NCBI GenBank assembly: GCA_036504735.1
Contig: DASXUQ010000002.1
Location: 186,001 to 250,000 of the forward strand
Direction of reading: 5' to 3'
DNA length: 64,000 nucleotides
Source: a bacterium
GTDB taxonomy: Bacteria > Electryoneota > RPQS01
Part shown: positions 2,244 to 31,690 of the stretch, piece after piece
Numbering within the stretch: the first letter of the stretch is position 1
Layout of the letters: each line of letters opens with the position of its first letter
Translations under genes and position numbers: made by a program
Notes under the pieces: generated by a model
What the model saw: the letters and a program-made list of their open reading frames with translations, nothing else
What the model was told of the DNA's origin: nothing
Database searches by the model: none

Positions 2244-2258
2244 GCGGAGAGACCGGGA
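2244..2258. repeat. Left attachment core (attL) of the integrative element
   Basis: GCGGAGAGACCGGGA is an exact copy of the acceptor/T-arm end of tRNA-Ser(GGA) at 30124-30138. Similarity to the region beside the intact tRNA continues to the left (terminator and a TTGGGCAC motif), but the sequence to the right is unrelated to the tRNA. This is what a tyrosine integrase leaves at the end distal to its own gene. Confidence 0.8.
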
Positions 2259-5669: not shown

Positions 5670-5672
5670 ACA

Positions 5673-9400: not shown

Positions 9401-9415
9401 CGAAGCGCTGCGATA

Positions 9416-10576
9416 TTATCGTTTACGAAAGACAAGTAGCTTCTCGGTCTTGATTCTGGCATGGGAAAGATTGAATGATTTGCGACTGCTGGCAATTTTA
9501 CGTTCAATCTCCGCTACCAAGAGCAAGTGTTGGTCATTTGCCAAGTTGCGGATAATCGAGGCATTGTCGATTTCTTGCCCGTGAATGATTGATCGTCCGA
9601 TTACGATGCAGATGTAACCACTCCGCACGAGAACACTCTTAAGAAGGGTAAGAACGTGGCTCATCTGCCGCACAAAGTCCTGATCTGTGTGGTGGTGACG
9701 TTTGAAGAAATGTGCACGTGCACCGATCTCTCTGCTCTTTACCTCCAGCGGATCAAAACCAAGCCACCACATTCGGTATTTGTGGTACAACCAGTATTCG
9801 TACGCGTTTGGATAAGGCGGGGAGGTGATCACCAGTCCCACTGGTCCAGGAATGTCGCCGGGCACAGCATCCATGATATCCTTCTGAACCACATACGCGG
9901 TGGGACGCGATGAACCAAGCGGCAGAAGTACGCGAGCCACCTCCTTGCATGCCGACTGAAACAGTGCATATACATCTGCAGCTTTAACGGCCTTGTCAAC
10001 TCGTGCATACCTTGTGTCGCTATCTTGGAAGGATACTCTCACAAGTATGCTGGATAACGCGGCCCGCAGGGCATCTCGCGTTACGTCGTTAGTTATCTGG
10101 TCGATGGCAAGTAACAACGTAGTGATGGTGTACTGTACTTCCTTGCTGAACCAGTGGTCAATGTTCGGGATGGTCAAACTCACTGGTGGCTGCCTCTGCG
10201 ACGAAGCCGATCGTGCGCTTTCAACGCATAGTTCTGACGCCGCCAAGTAAGTGGTGGGGAGCGGTGTGGTCTTTACGCGTGTCAGCAAGCACGCTATCGG
10301 ATGTAAATCGAGACCTACCGAAGGGAAACCGAGGGCTTGTGCTTCAACCAACGTCGTTCCACATCCACAGAATGGATCGAACACCAAGGTGTCTCTGGGA
10401 AGGCCCAAAGTCTGAATTAGAGTCTTAGGGATCTCCGGAATAAACCTAGCTGGATAAGGATGGATCGAATGCACTCCGTTGGTTGTTACGGAGTCCGGAA
10501 AATCCCAGTTGTGTGAAGCAATCTGCTCTGCTACGCCGCTCGACTTGCCAGAACAGAGTGAATATGGCTCGGCCAT
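9416..10576 (-). CDS. DNA methyltransferase of the TSPPY class, second copy
   Basis: The 386-residue protein has HPYPARFIPE near the N-terminus, the cofactor motif DPFCGCGTT (about 67-75) and TSPPYPNAYEYW (about 250). It is only distantly similar to the adjoining 506-residue methyltransferase, so the pair is not a recent duplication; each probably modifies a different strand of an asymmetric site. It is the first gene of the restriction-modification operon, so the modification enzymes would be made before the nuclease, the usual safe order. Confidence 0.85.
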   Translation of the reverse strand: MAEPYSLCSGKSSGVAEQIASHNWDFPDSVTTNGVHSIHPYPARFIPEIPKTLIQTLGLPRDTLVFDPFCGCGTTLVEAQALGFPSVGLDLHPIACLLTRVKTTPLPTTYLAASELCVESARSASSQRQPPVSLTIPNIDHWFSKEVQYTITTLLLAIDQITNDVTRDALRAALSSILVRVSFQDSDTRYARVDKAVKAADVYALFQSACKEVARVLLPLGSSRPTAYVVQKDIMDAVPGDIPGPVGLVITSPPYPNAYEYWLYHKYRMWWLGFDPLEVKSREIGARAHFFKRHHHTDQDFVRQMSHVLTLLKSVLVRSGYICIVIGRSIIHGQEIDNASIIRNLANDQHLLLVAEIERKIASSRKSFNLSHARIKTEKLLVFRKR

Positions 10577-10970: not shown

Positions 10971-12749
10971 ATGAAGGCAACCAAACCCAAACAGAAGAAG
11001 GCATCCGCCCCGAAGACGCAGGTTCCTCCCACCGATAGCGAGGGCGGCGATGATCTCCTCAAAGGTGATCTTGGGGGCATGGGGCTCGCAGAGGTGATTG
11101 CGGAGGCAAACCTATCCCAATCGCCCGAGGAAGTGGGACAGACGATGTACCGGTGGTTTGCGGACAACGGCGGGCTCGCCTTTGATGTGGCCGATGAAGG
11201 GTTGCAGTTGTCGTGGAAGGGCAGGGTTCTTCAGATCGGTAAGGACTCGTTCAAGTCCTTCCTATTGGAGGAGGCCGGTATTACGACTCGGACACCTAAG
11301 GCAGGCCGAATCATCGAGGCTTTTCGGCTGAAGGCTATCGCCAACGCAAAACGTGCTGATCACAGATCTTGGTTTAAGACGGATCGAGCAGCCCGCGTCG
11401 TTTACCTACACTTGAACGCCGCCGATCAGCAGATCTTTCGCATATCGCCAGCGAAGATTGAACGCATAGAAAATGGGGCAAATTCATATGATGTGTTGCT
11501 GTTTCCCAGCCCGAAGATTGCGCCTTGGGGCTACCAAGCGTTGAATGCCGCTGGCTTCAAGAAAGCTGTCCTCGCATTCGACGAATTGGTTCTTAGTCGC
11601 CTGGCATGCACTCCGGAGAATCGGCTGCTGTACGGGTGCTGGTTGTTGGCGTATCCGCTGATGGGGTTCACGTCGAGCCGTCCACACCTGCGATGTGAGG
11701 GCAGTTCTGGGCGCGGTAAGACAAGAGCCATGGACATCATGTCGACTTTCCTCTATGGTGACAGCAAGATCAAGACCGCGACGGAGGCTGCAAACTATAC
11801 TGACGCATCGCAGAATCCGCTGGTGCTGATCGATAATATCGAGACGAAGAACCTTACCCCCGCGTTAGTGCAGTTCATCCTGACTGCCGTCAGTGGCATC
11901 GAGCGTGAACGAAGAGCGCCGGGAGCTGCGCGAAGCATGATCGTCGAAGAACTTCACTGTCTGCTAAATACTTCTGGAATCGAAAATCTTGACCGAATCG
12001 AGTTGCTGAATCGAACATTCCATATTGAATTCGACAGCAAGAAGTTTGGCATGCCCTTGTGGAGCGATACATATTACCACGTCATCAGAATCAACCGTTC
12101 GACGATGATGTCCGCCCACATTCAGATCATCGCCAAGGTTCTCGACGCGATCTCGCAGGACAAACAGAAAGCCTGGCGTCAATGGTTGCAGGAGAAGCAT
12201 CCGGGGCATATACTGGAACGGTCCAATGAGTACCTCGCAATCATGGCTCTCGTTGCGGACGTGATTCTGCCGATCATTGATCCGAAGGCAAAGGTCAAGG
12301 ACTTGGTTGACAAATGGATTACAGGTCAAGACGCCTACGTTGGAGCGGTGGCGGTGGAAGCAAGTCCGATTGTCGCGACCCTCGATGCCATATTCCGCGA
12401 GGCCGCATTGCATCGGGCCTCACCTGACGTTGGCAAATGGCCGTATGAATTGCCCTGTGACGGGAATTCATTGTCGGGCGCTTCTTCCCCGCTCCGAGCG
12501 ATGCTTGCAAAAGTGGCGGCTAAGTACCGATTGGATTTCGACTACAAGAGTCCAAATACGTTTTCCAAGCGATTGAAAGACTCCGAAGCGACACTCGATT
12601 CGGCCGGATACACGCTGGACACAGGGTATGACGGTAACAAGAAGCACTTCACATTCACCATCACGAAGAAGGGAAAGGTCATTCCGAAAGGAATCTGGGG
12701 CGCGAGTACACTGTCAGACGTTCCGGACAAGCCGCGTAGGAAGCGATAA
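10971..12749 (+). CDS. P-loop ATPase, probable replication helicase/primase-associated protein
   Basis: The 592-residue protein starts with a basic, disordered 30-residue tail. A Walker A motif GSSGRGKT stands at about residue 244 and a Walker B-like LVLIDNIE at about 285. Its layout, with an N-terminal ~190-residue domain, a central ATPase and a C-terminal winged-helix-like end, resembles DUF927/D5-type ATPases of phages and integrative elements. It leads the plus-strand replication module that continues with the primase-helicase. The exact reaction is not identifiable; helicase loading or unwinding at the element origin is the likely role. Confidence 0.6.
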   Translation: MKATKPKQKKASAPKTQVPPTDSEGGDDLLKGDLGGMGLAEVIAEANLSQSPEEVGQTMYRWFADNGGLAFDVADEGLQLSWKGRVLQIGKDSFKSFLLEEAGITTRTPKAGRIIEAFRLKAIANAKRADHRSWFKTDRAARVVYLHLNAADQQIFRISPAKIERIENGANSYDVLLFPSPKIAPWGYQALNAAGFKKAVLAFDELVLSRLACTPENRLLYGCWLLAYPLMGFTSSRPHLRCEGSSGRGKTRAMDIMSTFLYGDSKIKTATEAANYTDASQNPLVLIDNIETKNLTPALVQFILTAVSGIERERRAPGAARSMIVEELHCLLNTSGIENLDRIELLNRTFHIEFDSKKFGMPLWSDTYYHVIRINRSTMMSAHIQIIAKVLDAISQDKQKAWRQWLQEKHPGHILERSNEYLAIMALVADVILPIIDPKAKVKDLVDKWITGQDAYVGAVAVEASPIVATLDAIFREAALHRASPDVGKWPYELPCDGNSLSGASSPLRAMLAKVAAKYRLDFDYKSPNTFSKRLKDSEATLDSAGYTLDTGYDGNKKHFTFTITKKGKVIPKGIWGASTLSDVPDKPRRKR

Positions 12750-12770
12750 CCAACATCCGCAGCGCAAGTC

Positions 12771-12905
12771 ACTAATCTACAACGTCTAACGCCGAAATGC
12801 GGAGGTTGCGGAGGTGTTTCGGTCGCCATTATAGTCGCCGGGACCTACGCATCTCCGCAGCACTGTACTAATCTACTGTAATTCATAATGTTCCGGTGCG
12901 GAGGT
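12771..12905 (+). repeat. Interleaved short repeats between the two replication genes
   Basis: This intergenic stretch carries two copies of ACTAATCTAC (12771 and 12867, spaced 96 bases) and three copies of GCGGAGGT (12799, 12808, 12898). Another ACTAATCTAC is at 25680 and another GCGGAGGT at 10664. They may be operators for an element-encoded regulator or part of a replication region. No gene is visible between 12750 and 13185. Confidence 0.45.
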
Positions 12906-12982
12906 AGATCTGCCAATCCACCACGACACATCCGCTGCAATTCCCGCCTCCGGTTGCCGTAAGTGCAATAAAATCAGCAATG

Positions 12983-13011
12983 TTGCATTCGCCTTCGAAA
13001 TTGTTTATATT
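12983..13011 (+). promoter_or_regulatory. Sigma-70-like promoter of the small-gene/primase operon
   Basis: TTGCAT (12983-12988) and TATATT (13006-13011) are separated by exactly 17 bases, a good match to the housekeeping consensus. Transcription would begin near 13018 and run through a 165-base leader into the genes starting at 13186, 13615 and 13865. Confidence 0.55.
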
Positions 13012-13127
13012 GGTGTATGGGCATCGTTATTCACTTTATTTACCGCGCCGGTCGCCCTACGGCGCATATGAACATGTCATACACCTAACCCGGCGATAAT
13101 GCCGGACAGACAAGAACTGAATATTCG

Positions 13128-13166
13128 CGGCTGATCACATGTGTATGGTGGTCAGCCGTTTTTTTT
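13128..13166 (+). terminator. Leader hairpin with U-tract (possible attenuator)
   Basis: An 11-position stem (CGGCTGATCAC / GTGGTCAGCCG, one G-T pair in RNA) is followed by eight T residues. It lies inside the leader made from the promoter at 12983-13011 and only 20 bases before the first start codon, so it would end most transcripts unless bypassed. That placement suggests attenuation control of the primase operon. Confidence 0.65.
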
Positions 13167-13185
13167 ACCTTACAGAGGAAGATCC

Positions 13186-13584
13186 ATGATAACTAGAATA
13201 CCAGGCGAACTACACACGTTCACACCAAACATATGGGCTGGATACAGCCTTGACGATATCGACGCTGAATTGAATTCGAAGGGCGCAGTCTTAGTATGCA
13301 CTGACATCGAATTGCGGTTCCTATACTGCAACGGGAAAATCTACGATCCACTAGAAACTGAAGACATGAAGAAGGCAATCGACGACATGGCACTATGCCC
13401 GTTCCGCTGGCCCGTTAAGAAGGACTTGGCGCGAGCGCTGTACCAGGCGATCAGGCGAACAGCCACAACGCTTCAACAGAAGAAGCTGGCTGTGCCGAAA
13501 GCAGCCAAGTACAATTGTGGGGAAGACGCCAGACGCAATACCAAGGGATTTGCGCTGCAACAAATGCTACCCAAGATACCATAA
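13186..13584 (+). CDS. Hypothetical protein of the replication module
   Basis: This 132-residue protein is not recognised. It starts MITRIPGELHTFTP and contains an acidic LDDIDAELNSKGAVLVCTDIE stretch and a basic C-terminal end. The ATG at 13186 has AGAGGAAG just upstream. It opens an operon with the DUF5659 gene and the primase-helicase, so a role in element replication or its control is inferred only from position. Confidence 0.55.
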   Translation: MITRIPGELHTFTPNIWAGYSLDDIDAELNSKGAVLVCTDIELRFLYCNGKIYDPLETEDMKKAIDDMALCPFRWPVKKDLARALYQAIRRTATTLQQKKLAVPKAAKYNCGEDARRNTKGFALQQMLPKIP

Positions 13585-13614
13585 GAACTACTACACAACA
13601 TAAGGACACCTAAC

Positions 13615-13947
13615 ATGACCAACAAAACATTTTCGACAAAGGATTTCGCGGTTGCCGCTACGATCCTGTCATCAGACCATCGAATGATCGACTATGTCAT
13701 AGACGACATCACAGAAGAAATGTATTTCGAATTCGACGACACAGAAGCGGTGCGGGAATTGGAACGCAGCGTTCGCCTTGGCACCGCTGTCGTCAACGTG
13801 CAGAAATTCGTAGCTGCACAGAAGGCCCTGAAGGCCATGATTTATGACAAACGCAGGAAGTTATATGCAAATAGAATGCAAATCGACAGCAGAAGAACTG
13901 CTGGACAAAATGATCACGCGGGACGATTGTTTCGCAGTACAGAATAG
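13615..13947 (+). CDS. DUF5659-like small protein
   Basis: The first ~80 residues match the DUF5659 pattern: FSTKDFAVAATILSSDHRM at the start, EMYFEFDDTEAV in the middle, then VVNVQKFVAAQKALKAMIYD. Such small proteins are common next to replication genes of phages and integrative elements. AAGGA lies upstream of the ATG. The last ~27 residues overlap the primase-helicase start by 83 bases in another frame and do not fit the domain, so the functional part ends near 13860. Confidence 0.6.
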   Translation: MTNKTFSTKDFAVAATILSSDHRMIDYVIDDITEEMYFEFDDTEAVRELERSVRLGTAVVNVQKFVAAQKALKAMIYDKRRKLYANRMQIDSRRTAGQNDHAGRLFRSTE

Positions 13948-16672
13948 CGACGGAACCTACAGAAAGACTGAACGACCCCTTACCACAGACGAAATACTAA
14001 AACACTTATCAGGCGATCATACCATAGGAATTTATCAGATCGACGATCGGAACGAAGTCAAGTTCCTATGCCTTGACATTGATCTTCGCAAGGAAGTACT
14101 TACCGACGGGTCCCCATCGGATGAACAACACGCGGAACTACAGAAAGTGGCCACGAATCTAATTCGTGCCGCAGAATCCCTAGGTCTTCAACCCGTGCCG
14201 GAATTCAGTGGCAGGCGTGGCTATCACCTACTATTCTTCTTCGACCGTCCTGTGTCCGCAAGTGCGGCGCGTGGCATCGCAGAAAGAATTAAGCAGTGCG
14301 CTGAAGCCATCCCTGCTGACATCGAAGTTGAAGTGTTCCCGAAACAAGATCACCGGACCGCATACGGCAGTTTGCTGAAACTACCGCTGGGTGTACACCG
14401 GCTTAGTGGCAAGCGTAGCACTTTCGTGTCCCCGGACAGTTGGCAGCCCATTAGCAATGCGATAGACGTGCTGCGCAATGCGACACCTGTCCGGACGAAG
14501 ATGGTGGATGAACTAACCTTTTCGTTGGAATCCACAAAAACAGTAGCGAAGAAGACCGGCGCCGCCTTGCTGGATCTGAACCGGCCGGGCTTGGAACAGA
14601 TGGTGAAGAACTGCCCGGTGATTCAGCTATTCGAAGTGCACCCGGAACGCTTCGCGTATGACGCTTGGCTTGGTGTGGGCAGCAATTACATCGTCTTCAA
14701 AGGTGGTTGGGAGCGCTTTGTCCAAATCAGCAAGCGTGATGCCGCAAATTTCAGCCAACACGAAATTGACCGCATACGTGACGAAATCCTGGATCACTTT
14801 CACGGTCCCCAGACCTATGACGTGTTCATGAAGCAAGGTGTCGTGTTCGACCTTCACAAGGGGTCCCCGAATGCGCCCGCTGGCTATGGTTCACGCCGTG
14901 ATCCGATCCAGTCCAACATCGTTGAACAAGACGGTTGTTATGGAAGATTGGGGAAAGAAGGCGCCTTCGAAATGCTGACGCCGTTCACGATCGAGACGAA
15001 GGAACTTCTTCTGTTACCGGACGGGGATGTTCTGACGTGCACGATCAATCACCGGTCGGGACAGTCGTGGGATGACGTCAGGATAGAAAATGTGGATTGG
15101 CATACACGTTCCAAGTTTATGAAAGCCCTGGGGCACAGCGAATGTACCTTCCATGGCAGCGACCTGCAATTGATTGACGTGTGCCAGCACGTTGTATCAC
15201 AGGTGAACCACCGCAAGCAAGGGACACGAATAATAGGTCTGCAGAACGACTTATGGGTGACCAAGAACATCAACATCAGCGCAGCGGGCTATATCGACCC
15301 GCTAACAATCATACCTTATGATCGCAGCGCCGATTCATTGCACACGCGTGTCCAATATCAACACCTTGACGACACTGCGTATACAGCGCTGGCCAGCGGC
15401 TTCTTCGGCAGCATTCTGACTGTCAATTTGCCAGAAGTCATATTGCCAATTCTAGGTTGGTTCTTTGCCGCGCCATTGAAGCCGCGTATCATGGAAGTGG
15501 CAGGCAGTTTCCCCATCCTGTTTTGCTACGGCACAGCGGGTGGGGGTAAGACCAGTCTTCTGGAATTGATGCTGACACTACAAGGTTATGTAGATCCTAC
15601 GGTCTACAGTTGCACCATGAAGCCCTTCCCGATGTTGAAACTGCTATGCAGCACCAACGCCGTTCCCATCGTTCTGGACGAATTCAAGCCATGGGATATG
15701 CGCGACTTTCAAGTGTTGGATATCGGCCGCCTGATCCGCAAGATCTATCGCGGTGAAATCGAAGATAAGGGGACAGGCGACCAAGGTGTCATCCACTACC
15801 ATCTGCAAGCCCCTGTGGTCGTGTGCGGTGAATCAAAAGTGAACCAGACGGCTGTCATGGAACGTGTGCTGGTGGCAGGCTTCACAGATGCCATCAAGAA
15901 CCGACCCGATATGCAGCAGGCATTTCGAAGCCTTCGACAGCTTGACCTTACGGCTTTCATGGACAGGTACATTCAGTTCTGTCTAAATGCCGATGTGGAA
16001 GTGGGCCTGGCCGCTGCCGAAGCCAAAATGCGGACGCTGTTGGCTGGAACCAGTATCCAACCGCGCCCAGCTGCAAATTTGGCCGCCATGGTCTTTGGGC
16101 TTGACCTGATGCAACAGTTTGCCATGCAGTGGGGTGTTGATTTGTCGGGACGCATTGATCTTAAAGCGGCACTGAAGATTCAGCTTGAAGAAATCGCGGG
16201 AAACGATAGCGGGCAGGTGAAGTTGGCCGCCGACATGCTATTGGAACAACTTGCCATCATGGTCGAAAAGAACCTGCTGACGAAGTATGTTGACTTCAGC
16301 CATGTGATCCCGACGGGTTCCGATCCTAAGCATCCAGTGCTGGCCCTTCACCTGAAGACCGCCGTCCAAACCTTCAAAGCCAATCTTCGGCATCTTGGTT
16401 TTGACGGGGAAGTCCTAGACGACGCCGCATACCTGAAGCAGTTCAAGACCCGCGATTACGTGAAGGCGACGAATCACACTGTCCGCTTCCCTTACCTTGG
16501 CCCTTCACGCGAAGAAGACAAAATCAAGAAGTGTTTGTTGATTGATGTGGACAAGGCGAAGACCATGGGCTTGGAGCTGACTGGCTTTGACGGGACCGAA
16601 TTGATCGGGGCTGACGACCAGGTGAAGAAGCCGCTGAAAGAAGATTCTGTAACCGATCACCCGGCATTGTAA
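13865..16672 (+). CDS. Primase-helicase (AEP primase domain plus P-loop helicase)
   Basis: The N-terminal third of this 935-residue protein is an archaeo-eukaryotic-type primase domain of the kind named TOTE-conflict-system primase: FLCLDIDL with catalytic acidic residues (near 73), SGRRGYHLLFFF, and EVEVFPKQ. The C-terminal half has a Walker A motif GTAGGGKT (about 556-563) and IVLDEF as Walker B, a superfamily-3-like helicase arrangement. One polypeptide could therefore both prime and unwind DNA at the element origin. I chose the ATG at 13865 because AGGAAG lies four bases before it. An iteron-like array follows within the 3' end and beyond. Confidence 0.8.
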   Translation: MQIECKSTAEELLDKMITRDDCFAVQNSDGTYRKTERPLTTDEILKHLSGDHTIGIYQIDDRNEVKFLCLDIDLRKEVLTDGSPSDEQHAELQKVATNLIRAAESLGLQPVPEFSGRRGYHLLFFFDRPVSASAARGIAERIKQCAEAIPADIEVEVFPKQDHRTAYGSLLKLPLGVHRLSGKRSTFVSPDSWQPISNAIDVLRNATPVRTKMVDELTFSLESTKTVAKKTGAALLDLNRPGLEQMVKNCPVIQLFEVHPERFAYDAWLGVGSNYIVFKGGWERFVQISKRDAANFSQHEIDRIRDEILDHFHGPQTYDVFMKQGVVFDLHKGSPNAPAGYGSRRDPIQSNIVEQDGCYGRLGKEGAFEMLTPFTIETKELLLLPDGDVLTCTINHRSGQSWDDVRIENVDWHTRSKFMKALGHSECTFHGSDLQLIDVCQHVVSQVNHRKQGTRIIGLQNDLWVTKNINISAAGYIDPLTIIPYDRSADSLHTRVQYQHLDDTAYTALASGFFGSILTVNLPEVILPILGWFFAAPLKPRIMEVAGSFPILFCYGTAGGGKTSLLELMLTLQGYVDPTVYSCTMKPFPMLKLLCSTNAVPIVLDEFKPWDMRDFQVLDIGRLIRKIYRGEIEDKGTGDQGVIHYHLQAPVVVCGESKVNQTAVMERVLVAGFTDAIKNRPDMQQAFRSLRQLDLTAFMDRYIQFCLNADVEVGLAAAEAKMRTLLAGTSIQPRPAANLAAMVFGLDLMQQFAMQWGVDLSGRIDLKAALKIQLEEIAGNDSGQVKLAADMLLEQLAIMVEKNLLTKYVDFSHVIPTGSDPKHPVLALHLKTAVQTFKANLRHLGFDGEVLDDAAYLKQFKTRDYVKATNHTVRFPYLGPSREEDKIKKCLLIDVDKAKTMGLELTGFDGTELIGADDQVKKPLKEDSVTDHPAL

Positions 16673-17332: not shown

Positions 17333-17710
17333 CTATTTATTTTTCCGGTTTACGGCAAAGATTTCGCGACCCGGCATTCCAAAGGTGAAGTACCCACCAT
17401 TCCGCTTGTAGTACCGCACCGAGCCTATACTTGGGTTGAATCTCGCGTTGGTGCATGCCCAATCTAATGCCTGATTGTAGCCCGGCATCAGCCCTGCAAT
17501 CTTACCCAGCAACACATTACGGCTGGCATCCAGTTCAGCTATACGCTGGTCTATGCAATCCAGCACCGCTTGTGCCGCAACGCCCGCGGCCAAGGCGCGT
17601 TCTCTCTCCAACCGGCGCATTTCCACTTTCTCTTCACGCGATCGGCGAATCAGCGCAACTGCCGCCGACGGCAATCCAGCGAACTCCGCCGGCGCCTCCG
17701 GTGAAATCAA
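17333..17710 (-). CDS. Hypothetical protein with coiled coil
   Basis: The 125-residue protein has a charged helical N-terminal half (SREEKVEMRRLERERALAAG) likely to form a coiled coil, then a basic aromatic end (VRYYKRNGGYFTFG). No family is recognised. The TTG start overlaps the stop of the upstream YbjN-like gene by four bases (TTGA), which ties the two in one operon. Confidence 0.5.
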   Translation of the reverse strand: MISPEAPAEFAGLPSAAVALIRRSREEKVEMRRLERERALAAGVAAQAVLDCIDQRIAELDASRNVLLGKIAGLMPGYNQALDWACTNARFNPSIGSVRYYKRNGGYFTFGMPGREIFAVNRKNK

Positions 17711-18204
17711 CGGGTAGTCCGTGCGGCCTCCTCCAGCGCCGATAGCGCTTCCACCGGAGTCATCTCTCCGGCAATGACCTTACGAATGAACGGGGCATGC
17801 TCCCAGGTACGCCAGAAGCTCGTGTGAAGCCAGTTCCGGAGCGCGGCAAAACCCGGTTCAACTCCATCGCAGCACAAACTTGTGGAGAACCCCACTCTTC
17901 CACCTGGGCAGTATTCCATCTCCAGATGCCCATGCCAACAGCCATAGTTTGCCCGGACGACATACTCTGCAACCAAGGCCAGCTTATCTTCCGGCACGCC
18001 GAACAATGGGAAAGTCCATACGGCCAGAGTCTTCGCTGGAACGTTGCCGGACAGGTCCCAGTAGAACATCTCGGTATCAATCACCACGTTCTGGTGCAGG
18101 TCGAAGACATTGCCCTCGGTGCCGCCACGATACCGCAGTTCAGAACGCCTTACCCCCAGTTCATCCAGAAAATCCAACACGCGCTGGGCAAACGGATCGA
18201 TCAT
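17707..18204 (-). CDS. YbjN-like domain protein
   Basis: The 165-residue protein has the alternating helix/strand layout of the YbjN / type III secretion chaperone-like fold: an N-terminal IDPFAQRVLDFLDELG helix, LALVAEYVVRANYG in the middle and an acidic C-terminal helix. Such proteins are small cytosolic adaptors of unclear function. GGAGGTGG directly precedes the ATG at 18204, which decides this start over an upstream one. Confidence 0.5.
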   Translation of the reverse strand: MIDPFAQRVLDFLDELGVRRSELRYRGGTEGNVFDLHQNVVIDTEMFYWDLSGNVPAKTLAVWTFPLFGVPEDKLALVAEYVVRANYGCWHGHLEMEYCPGGRVGFSTSLCCDGVEPGFAALRNWLHTSFWRTWEHAPFIRKVIAGEMTPVEALSALEEAARTTR

Positions 18205-18238
18205 GCCACCTCCTGTTTGCCTCTTATGCCAAAAAGAA

Positions 18239-25845: not shown

Positions 25846-25869
25846 AGAAGAGCCCGCTCGGACTCTTCT
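25846..25869 (-). terminator. Terminator of the ubiquitin-like operon
   Basis: A 7-bp perfect stem (AGAAGAG / CTCTTCT) is followed on the minus strand by TTTTAC. It lies after the E1-like gene and the 38-codon ORF, so that ORF would be inside the transcript. Confidence 0.6.
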
Positions 25870-25880
25870 ATGGTCAACCA

Positions 25881-25997
25881 TCACCTGCGACGGCTGCGAC
25901 CACTTCGGCGACACTGGTTGTCTCGGATTTTGTCGCAAGCGGTTTTCGCGCCGGTGGCGATGGCATCGATGATGTCACATGCGCCCTTGGCTTTCAT
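25881..25997 (-). CDS. Possible 38-residue Cys/Arg-rich peptide
   Basis: A 38-codon ORF begins MKAKGACDIIDAIATG and ends in an arginine-rich tail (RRSGRSRRR) with three cysteines. It lies 23 bases after the E1-like gene's stop and before the operon terminator, on the same strand. An AGGAGG stands 15 bases before the ATG, which is too far for a normal start. It is unrecognised and may be non-coding. Its position makes it a candidate fifth gene or conjugation substrate of the cassette. Confidence 0.35.
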   Translation of the reverse strand: MKAKGACDIIDAIATGAKTACDKIRDNQCRRSGRSRRR

Positions 25998-26020
25998 TGC
26001 GGGAAATTGATTCCTCCTGG

Positions 26021-26680
26021 TTAGTCAGTCATCAAAGTGAATGTTGCCAGATCAAGAACCAGGCGGAAGGGCAACGCTTCCGCATTCACATAGCGCCTAA
26101 TCATGCCGGTCAGGATGCTGCCGGCCATCATCGAGGTGTATCCGATGCTGCGATTGGTGCAGGGCTCCTGCAGTGTTTCCGAATCCGGCACAATCGTTTG
26201 GCTGTAAGCCACACGTTCTTCCCGGATCCCCGGCCGTACACAGTATACTACTAGTGTCTGCAGAGCCATGCGGCTATCGATGTACAGTTTCACATCCGGC
26301 TTCTGCCGCACCGATTGCCAGATCTGTTTGCGAGCCGACATGCTGTCCACTGCCGAGATCACGACTTCTGTCAAAGGCTGATCGGTGTAGAGCTGCGCCG
26401 TTGCATTCGGTGTGTGGCCACCGAGTTGCTCCATCAACTGTAGCATCGCACCGGCCTTGGTCATGCCGATATGATCGTCGCCATATAACTGGCAAGACAC
26501 GTTTTCAGGGCTGACCACATCGGCATCCCAGGCTTGTAAACCGCAAACACCAATTTTCCCAAGCCCAAGGGCAGTAAACGAACCGATGCTGCCCAGGCCA
26601 ATCAGCGTCACACCCAACGAGGTCAGGCGGGACATGTCGACAGCATCTGCCTGGCGAAGGAACCGGAGACTGTTGTCCAT
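26021..26680 (-). CDS. ThiF/E1-like adenylyltransferase
   Basis: This 219-residue protein is a minimal E1-type Rossmann domain: GLGSIG (28-33), the acidic pair in WDADVV (Asp52, Asp54) with N60, Q64 and K75 positioned as in ThiF/MoeB, and ISAVDS (109-113). The CxxC zinc pairs of MoeB are absent. Cys174 in EPCTNRS is the likely site for a thioester with the ubiquitin-like protein. It should adenylate the C-terminal glycine of the 70-residue protein and pass it on. Its start overlaps the stop of the JAMM gene by one base (TGATG). Confidence 0.85.
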   Translation of the reverse strand: MDNSLRFLRQADAVDMSRLTSLGVTLIGLGSIGSFTALGLGKIGVCGLQAWDADVVSPENVSCQLYGDDHIGMTKAGAMLQLMEQLGGHTPNATAQLYTDQPLTEVVISAVDSMSARKQIWQSVRQKPDVKLYIDSRMALQTLVVYCVRPGIREERVAYSQTIVPDSETLQEPCTNRSIGYTSMMAGSILTGMIRRYVNAEALPFRLVLDLATFTLMTD

Positions 26681-27405
26681 CAGAAGGGCCTCTCTTCACG
26701 TTCGAGTTCCTCCGGGTAATACCATTCCATCTCTTCCAGCAACTCGTCGTTGCTTAGGATGCCACGATCATTTGCCGCCCTTAAGTCACGCACATGTTCT
26801 TCAGTATCTCTCGACAGCGACCGGCGTCCGTTGAAGATGTGGCCGTCCTCCAAGACCTTCGCCTTGAATTCGGTCAGACACTGCTCGGCCATGCCATCGA
26901 TCAATGGATAGGCAATCTCCCAAACCAAATCGGTCAGAAATAGATGGGCAGGGTGGAAAACGTCCAATCGGCACATGCTGTCGCGCTTCTTGTTGACCAC
27001 AAGGGACAGCAGATAGCTCGCGTTGGCTAGGCCGTTGATGCAGTCATCATCCGTGCCCGACCAGAATACAGACATAGACCCGTGGCTGTGTGCCCAGCAC
27101 CGAAGCTTCCGGCTATCAATGCCCTGCTGTTCGAGGTCGACCATCAGCTGCGAAACCGCTGCGGCATCCATGGTGGTCTCATCGGCGGAACATCGCTGCT
27201 TCACGAGGAAGAAGTCTGTCACTAGCAGTGCTGTGACCGCTCCCGAATCGGCATCGTGGATTTCGTCAACTAGACCGAGACAAGACACTTCTCCCTTCGC
27301 GATGTCTACCCACGACAAGAATCGCTGATAGGCCAGCGCACCTATCTGCACACGGATCCCAAGTTGCACCGGTTCACGCCGCGATTTCGTCTGCCACTGG
27401 CTCAT
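26680..27405 (-). CDS. JAMM/MPN (Mov34) metalloprotease
   Basis: The 241-residue protein carries a complete JAMM set: Glu39 (KGEVSCLG) and HSH-x7-S-x2-D (His106, His108, Ser116, Asp119), which bind the catalytic zinc. JAMM enzymes remove or trim ubiquitin-like proteins. Here it could cut the two residues after the Gly-Gly of the neighbouring ubiquitin-like protein and also reverse conjugation. A strong AGGAGG six bases before the ATG fixes the start, although it lies inside the end of the E2-like gene (32-base overlap). Confidence 0.9.
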   Translation of the reverse strand: MSQWQTKSRREPVQLGIRVQIGALAYQRFLSWVDIAKGEVSCLGLVDEIHDADSGAVTALLVTDFFLVKQRCSADETTMDAAAVSQLMVDLEQQGIDSRKLRCWAHSHGSMSVFWSGTDDDCINGLANASYLLSLVVNKKRDSMCRLDVFHPAHLFLTDLVWEIAYPLIDGMAEQCLTEFKAKVLEDGHIFNGRRSLSRDTEEHVRDLRAANDRGILSNDELLEEMEWYYPEELEREERPF

Positions 27406-28522
27406 GGCTTACCTCCTCGGTTTCTTCTTTTGGGCGGTTGGGACAGTTTTCCTCGTCGTGATCCAAGTCTACGTATTCGCCACAGAATTCACAGAAGTGG
27501 CATTCGTCGCATTCACTGATCGTGTGCCCATCGTACGAGTCACACCATGAACAGTACGGAGAATCGTCATCATCTGGCTCTTCGTAGTCTGGGGACCAGC
27601 GTTCGATCTTTTGGTACGGATCTGATGCGTTATAGCTTGTCAGGAATGTATGCACCAATTGAAACAGGCCCAGTAGGTCTATCTCGCCTGCTAATCTCTG
27701 GATTAGGCTACCACACGAGCCCCAGCAAACATTGCTTTTTTCGTCCGTGCAGTGTGGGTGAATGTAACCATTGACGTTAGTACCACCGCCGATGAACACT
27801 TTTCCCTGTCGCAGGTTCACAGTAACTTCGTACGGATCAAAGTGGTAGGTGTAGCCATCATAGTCAATATCAACTTCGTGCGTGACACCAATCACCGACT
27901 CGTCTTCAAAGCGGAAGGATTCGTAGACGGCTGGGACGAGCTTCATCAGATCGCAGAAGGTACGATTCGCTCGAGCCCGAATCCATTGCGGACTGTGCTG
28001 GAACATCTCCAGCAGATGTCGGTCGGTTTCCAGCTTGCGGGAAAGCTGCATCACTTGCAAGGACAAGCGTTCCAGTTCATAGCTGTCTTCTCTGATGGAA
28101 GACTGAAGCTCTCGCTTGCGATCACCAACACAACCTGCTATCGCCTCCACGAGTTGATTCTTATGTTCGTGGCGGTAAGTGCGACAGAGCTTGGGGAGAT
28201 GTTGATCGAGTAGCTGTTTCGCAAAGCTAATAGCCGGCGGATGCTGAGAGCAAAACAGTAGCACAAGCCATTGCTTGCCGATCCGAGCCACGGGCATTTC
28301 ATCGCATGTGATCAGATTTCCCGGCAGGAACTTTGCGAATGACGGTTCATGCAGAATTGCCATGTCGCCGATAGTCTTGGTCACCGTGGCGTTGCTCGGT
28401 ATGGTGACCGCTAGACCTTCCCGATCCCACGATTCGGTCTGCCATTGGTCCGACAGCACCTGGATCGGCACGTGATGCTTCTGCGCATAGAAGCGCACGA
28501 GATCCTGAATCTGTTGAATCAT
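27374..28522 (-). CDS. E2-like (UBC-fold) protein with C-terminal zinc-finger-like region
   Basis: The 382-residue protein has a helical N-terminal half with a coiled coil (about 120-165). Next comes a UBC-like stretch: GYIHPH, eight residues on a Cys in NVCWGS, then LLGLFQLVHTFLTSYN-ASDPY, which parallels the HPN...C...LL..PNPDDP layout of E2 enzymes; the Cys is the presumed thioester site. After an acidic linker the last ~60 residues have seven Cys and three His (C324-x2-C327, H333, C338-x2-C341, H342, C344-x2-C347, H355, C360), suited to bind two zinc ions, possibly RING-like. GGAG precedes the ATG. Overlap with the JAMM gene ties it to the operon. The RING reading is inference. Confidence 0.75.
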   Translation of the reverse strand: MIQQIQDLVRFYAQKHHVPIQVLSDQWQTESWDREGLAVTIPSNATVTKTIGDMAILHEPSFAKFLPGNLITCDEMPVARIGKQWLVLLFCSQHPPAISFAKQLLDQHLPKLCRTYRHEHKNQLVEAIAGCVGDRKRELQSSIREDSYELERLSLQVMQLSRKLETDRHLLEMFQHSPQWIRARANRTFCDLMKLVPAVYESFRFEDESVIGVTHEVDIDYDGYTYHFDPYEVTVNLRQGKVFIGGGTNVNGYIHPHCTDEKSNVCWGSCGSLIQRLAGEIDLLGLFQLVHTFLTSYNASDPYQKIERWSPDYEEPDDDDSPYCSWCDSYDGHTISECDECHFCEFCGEYVDLDHDEENCPNRPKEETEEVSHEPVADEIAA

Positions 28523-28540
28523 CGGATTCTCCGGAGATGA

Positions 28541-28574
28541 GAAGAGCCCCAGTCGAAATGGACCAGGGCTCTTC
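28541..28574 (-). promoter_or_regulatory. Intercistronic hairpin between the Ubl and E2-like genes
   Basis: A perfect 9-bp stem (GAAGAGCCC / GGGCTCTTC) with a 16-base loop lies in the 81-base gap, just before the ribosome binding site of the E2-like gene. It has no T-tract, so it may stabilise the upstream message or be a processing site that makes more Ubl than enzyme. Confidence 0.45.
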
Positions 28575-28603
28575 CCATTACAGTAGGCAGTCAGGAATGC
28601 TGT

Positions 28604-28816
28604 CTACTGATCTCCGCCTTTCACCTGGGGGACGAGGGTCAGCACCGACCCTTCGGTCAGCACATCACTGTCGAATGCCGGACTGCCGTTCACATGCCGC
28701 GTGTACGAACTGTCCTTGGGGAAACCGGCCTGTTGGATCGCGGCTTCCACGGTGGTGCCTTCACCAATTTCGATCTCCTTCGCGGCGCGTCCTAAACACA
28801 ACACCTTCACACGCAT
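28604..28816 (-). CDS. ThiS/MoaD-like ubiquitin-like protein ending GGDQ
   Basis: The 70-residue protein has a beta-grasp layout like ThiS/MoaD (MRVKVLCLG, IEIGEGTTVEAAIQQAG, TEGSVLTLVPQV) and ends KGGDQ. The di-glycine is followed by two residues, as in QbsE, where a JAMM protease removes the last two residues before activation. It would be the modifier that the E1-like protein activates. AAGGAG precedes the ATG by six bases, making it the well-translated first gene of the operon. A sulfur-carrier role for a metabolic pathway is the main alternative, since no biosynthetic genes are nearby to support it. Confidence 0.8.
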   Translation of the reverse strand: MRVKVLCLGRAAKEIEIGEGTTVEAAIQQAGFPKDSSYTRHVNGSPAFDSDVLTEGSVLTLVPQVKGGDQ

Positions 28817-28849: not shown

Positions 28850-28870
28850 GGCTCCGCACAATGCAGAGCC
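28850..28870 (-). terminator. Terminator after the integrase gene
   Basis: On the minus strand a stem GGCTCTGC / GCGGAGCC (one mismatch) precedes CATTTTCG. It lies between the integrase stop and the Ubl start and may partly isolate the cassette from integrase transcription. Confidence 0.5.
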
Positions 28871-28924
28871 TTTCTTTGGTAACCTCTTATGCCAGGAATC
28901 AGGAATAAGATCTGGGACGAAGGT

Positions 28925-30025
28925 TCACTTCAGTGGTTTCGTTTCCGACAGTTGTAGCAACTTGACCGCAGCAGAGAGATGGTCTGGAGCGAGATGGGCG
29001 TATTTCATGGTCATTTCAATTGTCGTGTGCCCCAGCAGTTTCGACACTGTCTCTATGCCGACTCCCTTCATTACCAAGTGACTCGCAAATGTATGCCGCC
29101 ACTGGTGCACATCGCCTTCCAAGCCCAAATCGCGAAGTATTTCCTTCAACGCGTGATACACCCGGTCACGATGCACTTGCCCTCCTTCGACACCTGTGAA
29201 GACGTAATTGTGCGCAGGCGATTTGGACTGACGCTTGATAATGGCCACAGCCGCTTCATTCAGCGGGATGATCCGGCGCTTCATCGTCTTTGGCGACCAC
29301 CCTTCCTTCGCCTGCACGGTAATTGTAGGCGCTGGGCCCTTTAGGTTCACATCGTTCCACGTCAAGTACATTAACTCCGCTTTACGAAGGCCCGTGTAAT
29401 ACAGGAACTCGTAGATGTCACGGTAAGGTTGTTCCGCCTGTCCAAGAATTTGATGGACTTCGTCTTCCGTCCAATAAGGCGCGGCTTCGCCGACTTTGAT
29501 GTTGCGGAACGGCTTTATCCGATACGCAGGGTTTTCGGCGAGCAGCCCTTCCTCGACAGCATGCTTGAATAGCGCCTTGACATGGTACAGTTGTACGTTC
29601 AGCGTCTTGGGCTCTTGGCCACCTTCGCGCATCGCTTCCAGGAACTCTTCAACAGTGGCACGCCGAATATCTCGCACTCTTTCCACAGTAGGATAAGCAC
29701 GTGCCATGAAGTCAACGAAATGACGTGACAAAATATTATACCGCGTCATCGTAGCATCCGATACACGGCCCTTCTTCGCTCGCATGAATGCTTCCACCAG
29801 ATCCGGAAGGCTTATTTCGCTGGCCTTCTTGGTCGGTTCTCCGACGTACACCGCTATGAGTTCATTGTAAACATCTACGGACCGTCTGGTCGCATCATCT
29901 TTTCGGGGTCCTACCACTTCTCGCATACGTACGCCGGTTTCGGGGTGGTAGTAGTCAATAAAATAGCTTCTTGTGCCGCTGCGGTTGATACGCGATCGCA
30001 CAGCGGGCTTGGTTGGCTTATTCAT
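28925..30025 (-). CDS. int: Tyrosine recombinase/integrase of the element
   Basis: The 366-residue protein has an N-terminal SAM-like core-binding domain and a catalytic domain with Arg214 (TGLRKAE), His307 and Arg310 (HQWRHTF), His333 (LGHTT) and Tyr342 (KYAHL), the full tyrosine recombinase set. It would cut and join DNA at the tRNA-Ser 3' end. I chose the ATG at 30025 because the conserved protein begins there; upstream codons run into the arm repeat and terminator. The gene lies about 100 bases from attR, as is usual for tRNA-targeting integrases. Confidence 0.95.
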   Translation of the reverse strand: MNKPTKPAVRSRINRSGTRSYFIDYYHPETGVRMREVVGPRKDDATRRSVDVYNELIAVYVGEPTKKASEISLPDLVEAFMRAKKGRVSDATMTRYNILSRHFVDFMARAYPTVERVRDIRRATVEEFLEAMREGGQEPKTLNVQLYHVKALFKHAVEEGLLAENPAYRIKPFRNIKVGEAAPYWTEDEVHQILGQAEQPYRDIYEFLYYTGLRKAELMYLTWNDVNLKGPAPTITVQAKEGWSPKTMKRRIIPLNEAAVAIIKRQSKSPAHNYVFTGVEGGQVHRDRVYHALKEILRDLGLEGDVHQWRHTFASHLVMKGVGIETVSKLLGHTTIEMTMKYAHLAPDHLSAAVKLLQLSETKPLK

Positions 30026-30049
30026 GGTCGATTTTGGCTTTCTGAGCGT

Positions 30050-30067
30050 TAGGCACAATTTGGGCAC
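30050..30067 (+). repeat. Putative integrase arm site, right
   Basis: TAGGCACAATTTGGGCAC repeats, with one change, the sequence at 2390-2407 near the left end. It lies between the integrase start and attR, where its occupancy could also repress the integrase promoter. Confidence 0.5.
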
Positions 30068-30083
30068 CCCACGCCAAAATATA

Positions 30084-30120
30084 AAACGCACAACCCAGAA
30101 AATCAAGGGGTTGTGCGTTT
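30084..30120 (-). terminator. Terminator of tRNA-Ser(GGA)
   Basis: A perfect 13-bp stem (AAACGCACAACCC / GGGTTGTGCGTTT) directly follows the tRNA 3' end and is followed by TTATATTTT on the minus strand. It is element-borne and similar to the hairpin at 2205-2241. Confidence 0.8.
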
Positions 30121-30121
30121 A

Positions 30122-30214
30122 TGGCGGAGAGACCGGGATTCGAACCCGGGGTACCGGTTGTGCCAGTACTCACGCCTTCCAAGCGTGCGCCTTAAGCCAC
30201 TCGGCCATCTCTCC
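30122..30214 (-). tRNA. tRNA-Ser(GGA)
   Basis: A 93-nt class II tRNA with encoded CCA: seven-base acceptor stem GGAGAGA/TCTCTCC, D-arm, anticodon loop TTGGAAG (anticodon GGA), long variable arm and GTTCGAATC T-loop. It is intact and serves as the insertion site of the element; the 15 bases at its 3' end are duplicated at 2244-2258. Confidence 0.97.
30124..30138. repeat. Right attachment core (attR)
   Basis: GCGGAGAGACCGGGA within the tRNA 3' end is identical to the left core at 2244-2258. Sequence left of it, including the integrase, belongs to the element; sequence to its right completes the tRNA. Confidence 0.8.
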
Positions 30215-30241
30215 AGTGGCAAATACAATTTTCGGGGAGGG

Positions 30242-30339
30242 CTCACGCCTTCCAAGCGTGCGCTTTAAGTCCGTTCCGGCATCGCCGGAACGAGATCTCG
30301 ATCCCGCCGGGCGGAATCGGACCACTCGGCCATCTCTCC
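30242..30339 (-). pseudogene. 5'-half fragment of tRNA-Ser with D-loop insertion
   Basis: On the minus strand this matches the acceptor 5' strand, D-arm and anticodon arm of the adjacent tRNA-Ser(GGA). About 50 bases (30271-30321) are inserted in the D-loop, made of two adjacent hairpins (CGTTCCGGC / GCCGGAACG and GATCCCGCC / GGCGGAATC) with TCCG...CGGA ends. Homology ends at CTCACGCCTTCCA in the anticodon region, exactly the word where the 3' half at 623-680 ends. It cannot make a functional tRNA. Confidence 0.8.
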
Positions 30340-30356
30340 TTGTGGCGAAGCCTAAT

Positions 30357-30815
30357 TTACAACTTTTTCATCAAAGGAACAGGGGCTCCCAGATCCTCTG
30401 AGAATCCCTTGGAATCGTAGACGTTCTCAAGTTCGGCGATTTTGTCGTTTTCCACACGGAAAATCAGCGTCATCGGCATAACCACGTGCCGCAGGGAGGC
30501 AGGCATTCCCATAAAGGGCTTGGCATGGAAGGCCCGCGCCGTGACTTTGGCCACCACGCGGTCCTCTTCGGCGATCATCAGTCCCACTTCGGCGCAAAAG
30601 CCTTCAAAAGAATAGTGCATCATGCCAATCCACTCTTTGATAGCGCCCCGGCCGCAGATGACCCCCTGCGGGCCGTGAAACACAACGCCGTCGGAATAGA
30701 TTTCGTCCACCGCCGCGAGGCTGCACGCGTTCAATACCTCGTCAAAATGCCGCTGCACCAGTGCCTTGTTCGAGTCTGCGGACACGGGAGCCCTCCTCGC
30801 AGGATCGTCGGTCAA
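30357..30815 (-). CDS. SnoaL-like protein
   Basis: The 152-residue protein has the alpha+beta barrel layout of SnoaL-like/ester-cyclase proteins: N-terminal helix ALVQRHFDEVLNA, IYSDGVVFHGPQG, GRGAIKEWIGMM and a C-terminal ELENVYDSKGFSEDLG. Members range from polyketide cyclases to small-molecule-binding proteins, and no substrate can be inferred. It starts at TTG overlapping the stop of the upstream paralogue. It is the third of three tandem paralogues. Confidence 0.75.
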   Translation of the reverse strand: MTDDPARRAPVSADSNKALVQRHFDEVLNACSLAAVDEIYSDGVVFHGPQGVICGRGAIKEWIGMMHYSFEGFCAEVGLMIAEEDRVVAKVTARAFHAKPFMGMPASLRHVVMPMTLIFRVENDKIAELENVYDSKGFSEDLGAPVPLMKKL

Positions 30816-31240
30816 TGTTTCAAATGGTTGGGGAGCCAGGCCCCGAGTTGCTCGCGCACCCGCCGCGTATCATAGGCGACTTCGATTTCGGCGATGGTCA
30901 GCCCTTCGAAATGAAACAGCCAAAGCTGCGTCAGGGACATTTTTCGTCCGTTGGGCATCACCTCACCGAAGCGGCCCGTAAAGGTTGCGCGCACCGTGAG
31001 ACGGCAGGCAACGTGGCATCCTTCGCGAATGCAGAGATCCAGCGACACGCGCACATCGGGAAAGGCCAGCAGACCTGCAGCGAGCACGCGCTTGAGTCCT
31101 GCCGGACCCATCATAGCGCCTTCCGGCAGGTGGCAAACCAGTTGCGGCGAGCAGTACTCCTCGATGGCCTCCAACTCGCGCGCCCGCAATACGCGGTCGA
31201 CGAACTGTTCCGCGACCGTTTTTATGTCCGTATCAGGCAT
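30812..31240 (-). CDS. SnoaL-like ester-cyclase family protein
   Basis: This 142-residue paralogue has VAEQFVDRVLRARELEAIEEY at the start, LVCHLPEGAMMGPAGLKRVL, AFPDVRVSLDLCIREG and TIAEIEVAYDTRRVREQLG near the end, the usual SnoaL-type pocket pattern. GGGAG lies five bases before the ATG. It is 12 bases after the first paralogue and overlaps the third, so all three are in one operon and may form a mixed oligomer or act on related substrates. Confidence 0.75.
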   Translation of the reverse strand: MPDTDIKTVAEQFVDRVLRARELEAIEEYCSPQLVCHLPEGAMMGPAGLKRVLAAGLLAFPDVRVSLDLCIREGCHVACRLTVRATFTGRFGEVMPNGRKMSLTQLWLFHFEGLTIAEIEVAYDTRRVREQLGAWLPNHLKH

Positions 31241-31252
31241 CGGTACTCCCGG

Positions 31253-31690
31253 TTATTCCCGGGAGATATTGAGCGCCGCCGGCAGAGCCACACCCAATTG
31301 TTCGAACAGCAGCCGGGTATCGTAAAAGGCTTCGATGTCTCTGATTCGATCCGCGGCAAACTGCATGCTGAAAGCCGTTGGCAAAGCGACCCGCCGTCCG
31401 GTGGCGGCGACACCGCGAAACGCATCGCTGTGGGTTCCCCTCATGACCGCGCGGCACATGGCGCGCTCGTCATCACAGACAACATATTCGACGACGTAGG
31501 TGCAATCCGGAAAAGCGCGGGTCCACTCCCCCAGCCAGCCCTTGACCGACGTCAGTCCCTTCACCACATTGATGGGCCCGTGATAGAAGATGTCGGGCGT
31601 CATCATTTCATCCAACAGATCGAGCCGGTTCTGATTCACCAGCTCTTCAAAGTAGCGCACCACACCCGTACGGTTGCTCTGTGCTGACAT
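31253..31690 (-). CDS. SnoaL-like ester-cyclase family protein
   Basis: The first of three tandem paralogues (145 residues), with MTPDIFYHGPINVVKG, WTRAFPDCTYVVEYVV and DIEAFYDTRLLFEQLG, aligned with the same elements in the next gene. The three differ enough to be old duplicates. The function is unknown beyond fold. It leads the operon. Confidence 0.75.
   Translation of the reverse strand: MSAQSNRTGVVRYFEELVNQNRLDLLDEMMTPDIFYHGPINVVKGLTSVKGWLGEWTRAFPDCTYVVEYVVCDDERAMCRAVMRGTHSDAFRGVAATGRRVALPTAFSMQFAADRIRDIEAFYDTRLLFEQLGVALPAALNISRE

Follow-up and report, generated by a model that had tools for sequence, protein, structure and literature searches.

The 64,000-bp stretch analysed here (assembly GCA_036504735.1, contig DASXUQ010000002.1, positions 186,001 to 250,000; hereafter the window) carries on its minus strand four adjacent genes for a ubiquitin-like protein (UBL), an E2-like protein, a JAMM metalloprotease and an E1-like adenylyltransferase, described here as a UBL conjugation cassette. 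An initial annotation had proposed such a cassette on an integrative element, and the four open reading frames (ORFs), the overlaps of the E2 and JAMM genes (32 bp) and of the JAMM and E1 genes (1 bp), the shared terminator and the adjacent integrase all lie where it had placed them. The UBL and E2 genes are separated by a gap of 81 bp with a strong hairpin. Chance assembly is excluded, as the gene order repeats in other copies with 42-94% identity per protein; the order UBL-E2-JAMM-E1, for which the annotation had proposed a search of other genomes, was found again wherever the contig reaches. With Gly-Gly tails in need of processing and invariant residues in JAMM and E2, the four genes make up a compact cassette. 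Its best-supported chemistry, very likely as judged from the protein sequences, is to attach a dedicated UBL and to remove it again.

Proteins of the cassette

The UBL of the window scores above the gathering cut-off of Pfam ThiS, and among solved structures its profile is closest to the archaeal protein modifier SAMP2 (E 4e-8). ThiS/MoaD-type sulfur carriers end exactly at Gly-Gly. The ThiS/MoaD-like protein with a C-terminal GG motif was correctly recognized from the beginning, and in 16 of 16 relatives an invariant VKGG is followed by a variable tail of one to three residues. These tails are unrelated among copies (I, C, DQ, GW, CRS, LV and others), and a constant GG with a random tail fits the prediction for a tail-trimming protease; the UBL of the KSB1/Calditrichota branch is accordingly predicted to require C-terminal trimming. 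Mean column identity is highest for the UBL (84%), followed by E1 (71%), JAMM (69%) and E2 (68%).

The JAMM protease is complete, as had been claimed: of the motif E...HxHx7SxxD, the residues E39, H106-x-H108, S116 and D119 are invariant in 14 relatives. Its Pfam Prok-JAB match lies below threshold. The E1-like protein scores above the gathering cut-off of Pfam ThiF, and GxGxIGS, D52/D54, K75, D112 and Cys174 (in PCTxR) are invariant in 14 relatives. The chain stops after the adenylation fold and forms a single short domain. Where N-x-x-R-Q is usual, another residue stands in place of the Arg, in distant relatives too; the minimal single-domain enzyme of the initial annotation is real and conserved. 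In a profile search of the window genome, the cassette copies were the sole source of E1-like genes (n=4).

The E2-like protein consists of an N-terminal domain, a helical or coiled-coil middle part, a domain resembling ubiquitin-conjugating (UBC) enzymes (residues ~178-313) and a Cys-rich C-terminus (~323-362). Its putative active site comprises HPH (255-257) and Cys266, of which P256-H257 and Cys266 are invariant in 14 relatives; the complete HPH precedes Cys266 in 13 of 14 alignment rows, the L032 copy having SPH. After Cys266 comes helix-YN-xx-DP, as in UBC proteins. The broad-family profile could be aligned with five UBC enzymes, whose reference sequences were written from general knowledge, at E-values of 2.6e-5 to 2e-4; HPH then stands opposite HPN, and the two Cys coincide. 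With reversed references the same comparison gave 0.04-0.22 and with unrelated families 0.1-0.5, and the KSB1 rows alone reached only 0.03. A Pfam scan of the window E2 gave no meaningful match, a sequence-profile search of the PDB with the UBC region found nothing, and the full E2 profile found one UBC enzyme at E ~1. A UBC fold is graded as probable rather than proven because structure prediction gave no usable model.

The E2-zinc-finger fusion had been taken as a mark that sets this locus apart. The Cys-rich C-terminus is indeed real and conserved, but it is also present in distant relatives: E2 proteins with HPH...C and long Cys-rich tails occur in L082 and L110, the latter tail being rich in CxxC. 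It thus marks a broader family and not the window locus alone.

Relatives and evolution

Among 61 relatives searched, the E2 gene occurs in 10 genomes at 17 places (copies or fragments). A search of the 39 available genomes of the phylum found it in 9 of the 11 genomes of the same family and in one of another family. The genomes with the cassette are of KSB1/Calditrichota type, and its gene order is one and the same. Pairwise distances of E2, JAMM and E1 are well correlated (0.69-0.88), and the enzyme genes therefore largely move together; the correlation between UBL and E1 is weak (0.21).

The window genome holds four cassette copies on four contigs, the other three being 69-77% identical by JAMM in a search with that protein. 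Their synonymous sites are near saturation (proportion of synonymous differences, pS, 0.43-0.84), and the ratio of nonsynonymous to synonymous change (dN/dS) is 0.07-0.21 where measurable. The four cassettes are thus separate lineages under purifying selection; a recent duplication within the genome was considered and ruled out by the near-saturated synonymous sites.

More distant relatives were obtained by an E1 profile search over 386 genomes with follow-up. L082, from another lineage, has the same order UBL-E2-JAMM-E1, with a GG-N tail on its UBL and scores of 65, 106, 151 and 208 bits to the cassette profiles; L110 also shows this order. The operons L103/L104 have the order E2-JAMM-E1-UBL and a UBL that ends exactly at KGG. 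With such operons of like parts, the window cassette belongs to a wider family, within which the KSB1/Calditrichota branch is always tailed. No cassette relative was found in the viral contigs, phages and plasmids searched.

Several further loci were observed. L045 (5051-7429) is a decayed copy with an intact UBL and a frameshifted integrase ~47-64% identical to that of the window; its E2 breaks off after ~42 aa, where a glutathione-peroxidase-like reading frame is fused on. The E2 gene of L036 (9295-10422) has an in-frame TAG in the Cys-rich C-terminus and may be a pseudogene, a sequencing error or a truncation. In L108 (1-915), from another lineage, a broad-family E1 fragment adjoins a RadC-like JAB gene.

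Regulatory sequences

Each of the 16 UBL genes has the motif GGMATAAGA at a distance of 56-73 nt on its upstream side, with 0.013 expected per 350-bp region of the same DNA. TGGCATAAGA has 12 copies in the 4.16-Mb genome, ten of them in or beside the four cassette islands (two each for C2, C5 and C10, four for C9), one ~20 kb from the C10 cassette and one elsewhere. Integrases, a secreted-protein gene (L030) and a two-gene unit are likewise preceded by this sequence, either exact or with one base changed, and it is regarded as a candidate island promoter or operator. A sigma-54 promoter upstream of the UBL gene, for which divergent sigma-54-activator-like genes had given the prompt, was rejected: no convincing site was present and the conserved motif differs.

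At window positions 28885-28910, and likewise in L032, L035, L042 and L045, the motif is half of the inverted repeat TCTTATKCC...GGCATAAGA, which suggests a dimeric regulator or divergent promoters. Copies of TGGCATAAGA also stand right after a large secreted-protein gene in L041 (from 18183), in L038 (from 11748) and at the L039/L072 junction; they have no evident ORF after them, and a small RNA or a module boundary is possible.

In 15 of 15 copies the UBL-E2 spacer contains a hairpin of ~12-18 bp, in which 10 of the 17 consensus pairs show two-sided changes; the E2 ribosome-binding site is part of a further, small helix in the spacer. The covarying hairpin would allow an excess of UBL over the enzymes.

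Genomic setting

The proposed integrative element was borne out by the last 15 nt of the tRNA-Ser gene, which are repeated with an adjoining hairpin at the far end of the island. The features of the locus and its surroundings are listed in Table 1.

Table 1. Features of the cassette and its island in the window
Feature	Position	Strand	Description	Evidence
UBL gene	28604-28816	minus	70 aa, ThiS/MoaD/SAMP2-like, ends VKGG-DQ	ORF, Pfam, alignment
E2-like gene	27374-28522	minus	382 aa	alignment of 14 relatives, UBC profile-profile match
JAMM/JAB metalloprotease gene	26680-27405	minus	241 aa	profile matches, alignment
Minimal E1-like adenylyltransferase gene	26021-26680	minus	219 aa	Pfam ThiF, alignment, PDB E1 matches
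Intrinsic terminator of the operon	25846-25869	minus		
UBL-E2 spacer hairpin	28523-28578	minus	18-bp stem 28537-28578; small helix 28523-28533 pairing the E2 ribosome-binding site	
Leader hairpin GGCTCTGCATTGTGCGGAGCC	28850-28870	minus	in the UBL 5' untranslated region	
TGGCATAAGA, candidate island promoter/operator	28885-28894	minus	68 nt upstream of the UBL start	
Tyrosine recombinase (integrase)	28925-30106	minus	393 aa	Pfam Phage_integrase E 6e-32
tRNA-Ser(GGA), integration target	30122-30214	minus	attachment (att) core 30124-30138	
Second att copy GCGGAGAGACCGGGA	2244-2258	.	left end of ~27.9-kb island; adjoining hairpin 2201-2240	
IetAS defence pair	3177-6644	minus	subtilase IetS 3177-5669, AAA IetA 5673-6644	
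BfiI-type restriction-modification	6756-10576	minus	restriction enzyme 6756-7979; DNA methyltransferases 7880-9400, 9416-10576	incl. PADLOC
AEP-TOTE primase-polymerase family protein	13844-16672	plus	942 aa	Pfam E 8e-30, PADLOC
Two-gene unit	17333-18204	minus	own TGGCATAAGA at 18222-18231	

An integrase lies beside a tRNA or tmRNA gene in 9-10 cassette copies; outside the window the spacing is 70-260 bp in most copies. Between its 57-bp repeats the G007 island measures exactly 15,990 bp; it contains an integrase, a helix-turn-helix protein, two secreted proteins, regulators and the cassette. Repeats of 68+22 bp enclose the 44.6 kb in which the G001 copy is found. For two copies, C9 at tmRNA and C10 at tRNA-Lys, the stretches examined yielded no att repeats; C10 gave one 13-bp match only. 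Cassette islands beside tmRNA (ssrA) were also noted in L030 (16468-18096) and L033 (5498-7122), apparently with the same integrase subfamily.

In several islands a divergent sigma-54-activator/RtcR-like ATPase gene adjoins the UBL gene, and two islands encode a DUF5906 protein, of a family known from phage and plasmid replication genes. Large exported proteins of the type IX secretion system (T9SS) type are often encoded downstream of the operon. The two-gene unit has homologues in L032 (5178-6079), downstream of the cassette and with the same motif, the first gene being 79% identical. The L032 cassette adjoins a cyclic-oligonucleotide-based anti-phage signalling system (CBASS) locus (12217-16201) with a patatin phospholipase, a CD-NTase cyclase and its own separate E2, and cross-talk between the two UBL/E2 systems is possible there.

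An Rfam scan of 20-34 kb of the window found tRNAs only. Outside the boundary at 2244, positions 632-680 hold another, older partial copy of the 3' half of tRNA-Ser, made up of a 32-bp exact match and a further 14 bp; it may be what an earlier or tandem integration left behind. A degenerate tRNA-Ser-like stretch (30235-30340) immediately follows the intact tRNA-Ser gene. Just outside the island, at 30357-31690, three small ORFs of about equal length lie side by side; a match to SnoaL-like proteins was seen for the first, and the second and third resemble each other by eye.

Proposed function and alternatives

The reactions, the E3-like role, the promoter activity and the defensive role with its targets are put forward here as a model. 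The JAMM protease would trim the UBL tail of one to three residues and expose Gly-Gly, whereupon the small E1 would adenylate the UBL and charge its own Cys174. The UBL would then be handed to Cys266 of the E2-like protein and joined to proteins, with the Cys-rich C-terminus possibly providing target or E3-like recognition, and JAMM could also remove it from them. The promoter-like motif common to integrases and cargo would turn the module on together with the island, and the hairpin behind the UBL gene would raise UBL output above that of the enzymes. Finally, the tagging of invader or host proteins would protect both host and island from phages or rival elements.

On balance we favour the view that this is a self-contained UBL conjugation cassette, a standard module of satellite-like islands integrated at tRNA and tmRNA genes, which probably acts in defence against phages or rival elements. 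For the role as such, defence is the best single guess and is held with modest confidence, because of the island neighbours (IetAS, restriction-modification and AEP-TOTE in the window, CBASS at L032) and the precedent of the Bil, Bub and CBASS systems.

Several results weigh against this view. With shallow alignments, the AlphaFold2 model of the full E2 (6 sequences) was unusable (mean predicted local distance difference test, pLDDT, 44), as was that of the UBC part alone (pLDDT 57.6, predicted template-modelling score, pTM, 0.57), and Foldseek found nothing significant in the PDB. Several UBE2L3/UbcH7 E2 entries appeared among the top Foldseek ranks (E 0.16 or worse, TM ~0.2-0.3) and were given no weight. 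The E2-like assignment of the initial annotation is thus supported by profile alignment, but not by a structure model or fold match. PADLOC 2023 gave no match for UBL and JAMM, a chance-level one for E2 and, for E1, one via the generic E1 fold only (E1-E2, 42 bits). Among the E1 copies, that of the window has diverged most, with a mean distance of 0.43 and a dN of 0.35-0.44 to its three sister copies vs 0.09-0.22 among the sisters. Recognised defence genes stand beside few of the checked copies, others adjoining secreted-protein or efflux genes, and the 16-kb G007 element is without any other recognised defence gene; an island of this content, regulators and secreted proteins around the cassette, would also fit roles other than defence.

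The main rival to defence is an intrinsic function in the life cycle of the island, comparable to PRTRC and unrelated to phages, in which the cassette would control the integrase, the replication protein or regulators, or act in addiction. The cassette is kept beside integrases mostly only ~25-33% identical to that of the window and at different tRNA/tmRNA sites, the upstream motif is common to cassette and integrase genes, sigma-54-activator/RtcR-like ATPases and the DUF5906 protein accompany several copies, and the G007 element holds little beyond the cassette. Yet the window and L032 both have clusters of defence loci, no integrase is present in the stretch read for L035 and L042, and none of the partner genes is constant enough to suggest itself as the substrate. 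We consider this explanation a serious but rather doubtful one. Tentatively, the cassette may also be a core, co-regulated part of a whole class of satellite-like elements and not dispensable defence cargo; the TGGCATAAGA regulon of such an element would fire integrase, cassette and cargo together, and its UBL tagging would manipulate proteins of the host, phages or rival elements in the course of the element's life cycle.

An action of the cassette on the large exported proteins (T9SS-tail, beta-helix, BNR, FG-GAP) encoded just downstream, whether by modification or by control, is unlikely. In L030, L031, L032, L035, L038, L041, L042 and L043 the operon is followed by such genes, most of them in its own direction (domains were checked for some of these copies), and one in L030 has the same upstream motif, but the proteins belong to several unrelated families, run in the opposite direction in L036 and are replaced in the window by lipoproteins and defence genes; cytoplasmic UBL enzymes would moreover need to act ahead of export. 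Homology of UBL and E1 to ThiS and ThiF would be in line with a sulfur carrier that provides a thiocarboxylate for a cofactor, a tRNA base or a small molecule. We regard this as very improbable: the UBLs all appear to need C-terminal trimming, the E2-like protein is always present, and both proteins fall far below the NCBIfam cut-offs (ThiS 29.5 vs 80 bits, ThiF 51.8 vs 159 bits), by which the cassette is not classed as ThiS/ThiF. As the initial annotation had argued for the window, no thiamine, molybdopterin, cysteine or other biosynthetic gene is near any copy read; a rhodanese domain is likewise absent, and the profile search of the genome found no further E1-like gene. Equally remote is the prospect that the window cassette is a decaying remnant of which the relatives alone work. 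It would agree with the divergence of the window E1 and with the decay seen elsewhere (L045, stop codon in the L036 E2), but the four window ORFs are intact and keep all family-invariant residues, and the E1 dN/dS of 0.16-0.21 is well below 1.

Significance and comparison with known systems

New in this analysis are the position of most copies next to an integrase that itself lies at a tRNA/tmRNA gene, with clean att repeats around two of the copies; IetAS, BfiI-type restriction-modification and AEP-TOTE on the window island; TGGCATAAGA ahead of UBL, integrase and cargo genes; the covarying hairpin between UBL and enzyme genes; and the distant operons of like parts in other lineages. E1-E2-UBL-JAMM systems are extended to a lineage and an E2 architecture missed by Pfam and PADLOC, and a literature search returned no paper joining KSB1 and ubiquitin. 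The minimal four-gene cascade, with proteins of 70 to 382 aa, could be rebuilt in the test tube. With four diverged cassettes in one genome, the orthogonality of parallel tagging systems is directly testable; if the cassette is a core component of its element class, up to four such systems would operate side by side in one cell. The shared motif and the hairpin offer handles on the silencing of such systems and on excess tag production.

Among archaeal systems, SAMP2/UbaA/JAMM1 resembles the cassette in its JAMM protease and in SAMP2 as the closest solved UBL structure, whereas the cassette adds an E2-like protein, its UBL is made with a tail and its genes form an operon on islands. Type II CBASS shares the E1 superfamily (Cap2, E 6e-9) and has E2 and JAB activities (Cap2/Cap3). 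In contrast, E1 and E2 are separate in the cassette and a dedicated UBL is encoded; the window operon has no CD-NTase or effector, and by its gene content the cassette is not classed as CBASS. Burroughs et al. are said to have described, in 2011, RING-bearing bacterial E1-E2-JAB-UBL operons with the E2 beside or fused to zinc-binding domains. The cassette is similar in joining E2 to a Cys-rich, putatively zinc-binding domain.

PRTRC cassettes, which we take to be operon type 6d, contain ParB. They share with the present cassette separate UBL, E2-like, JAB and E1-like proteins. The best NCBIfam match of JAMM is PRTRC_A with 17.8 bits vs a cut-off of 101.8, and E1 reaches 39.2 vs 144.75 bits for PRTRC_ThiF. 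According to Iyer et al. (2006, PMC1779556), the E2-like protein of type 6d lacks the upstream His, its JAB carries a domain at the N-terminus and a further, alpha-helical protein is encoded. The E2 of the cassette differs in having a His upstream of the Cys, and by this residue and the low NCBIfam scores the cassette is not assigned to PRTRC.

Bil (BilA-D) and Bub comprise UBL, E1, E2 and JAB or deubiquitinase (DUB). As in the cassette, these are encoded in one operon at horizontally acquired loci, with predicted conjugation and deconjugation. Compared with this general gene set, the cassette differs in the extra N-terminal domain, coiled coil and Cys-rich C-terminus of its E2 and in its single short E1 adenylation domain, and its UBL, E2 and JAMM are not meaningfully matched by any PADLOC model. 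Bil and Bub are named among known or putative immune pathways (PMC13373217). In kind, the cassette is likened to the Bil, Bub and PRTRC systems.

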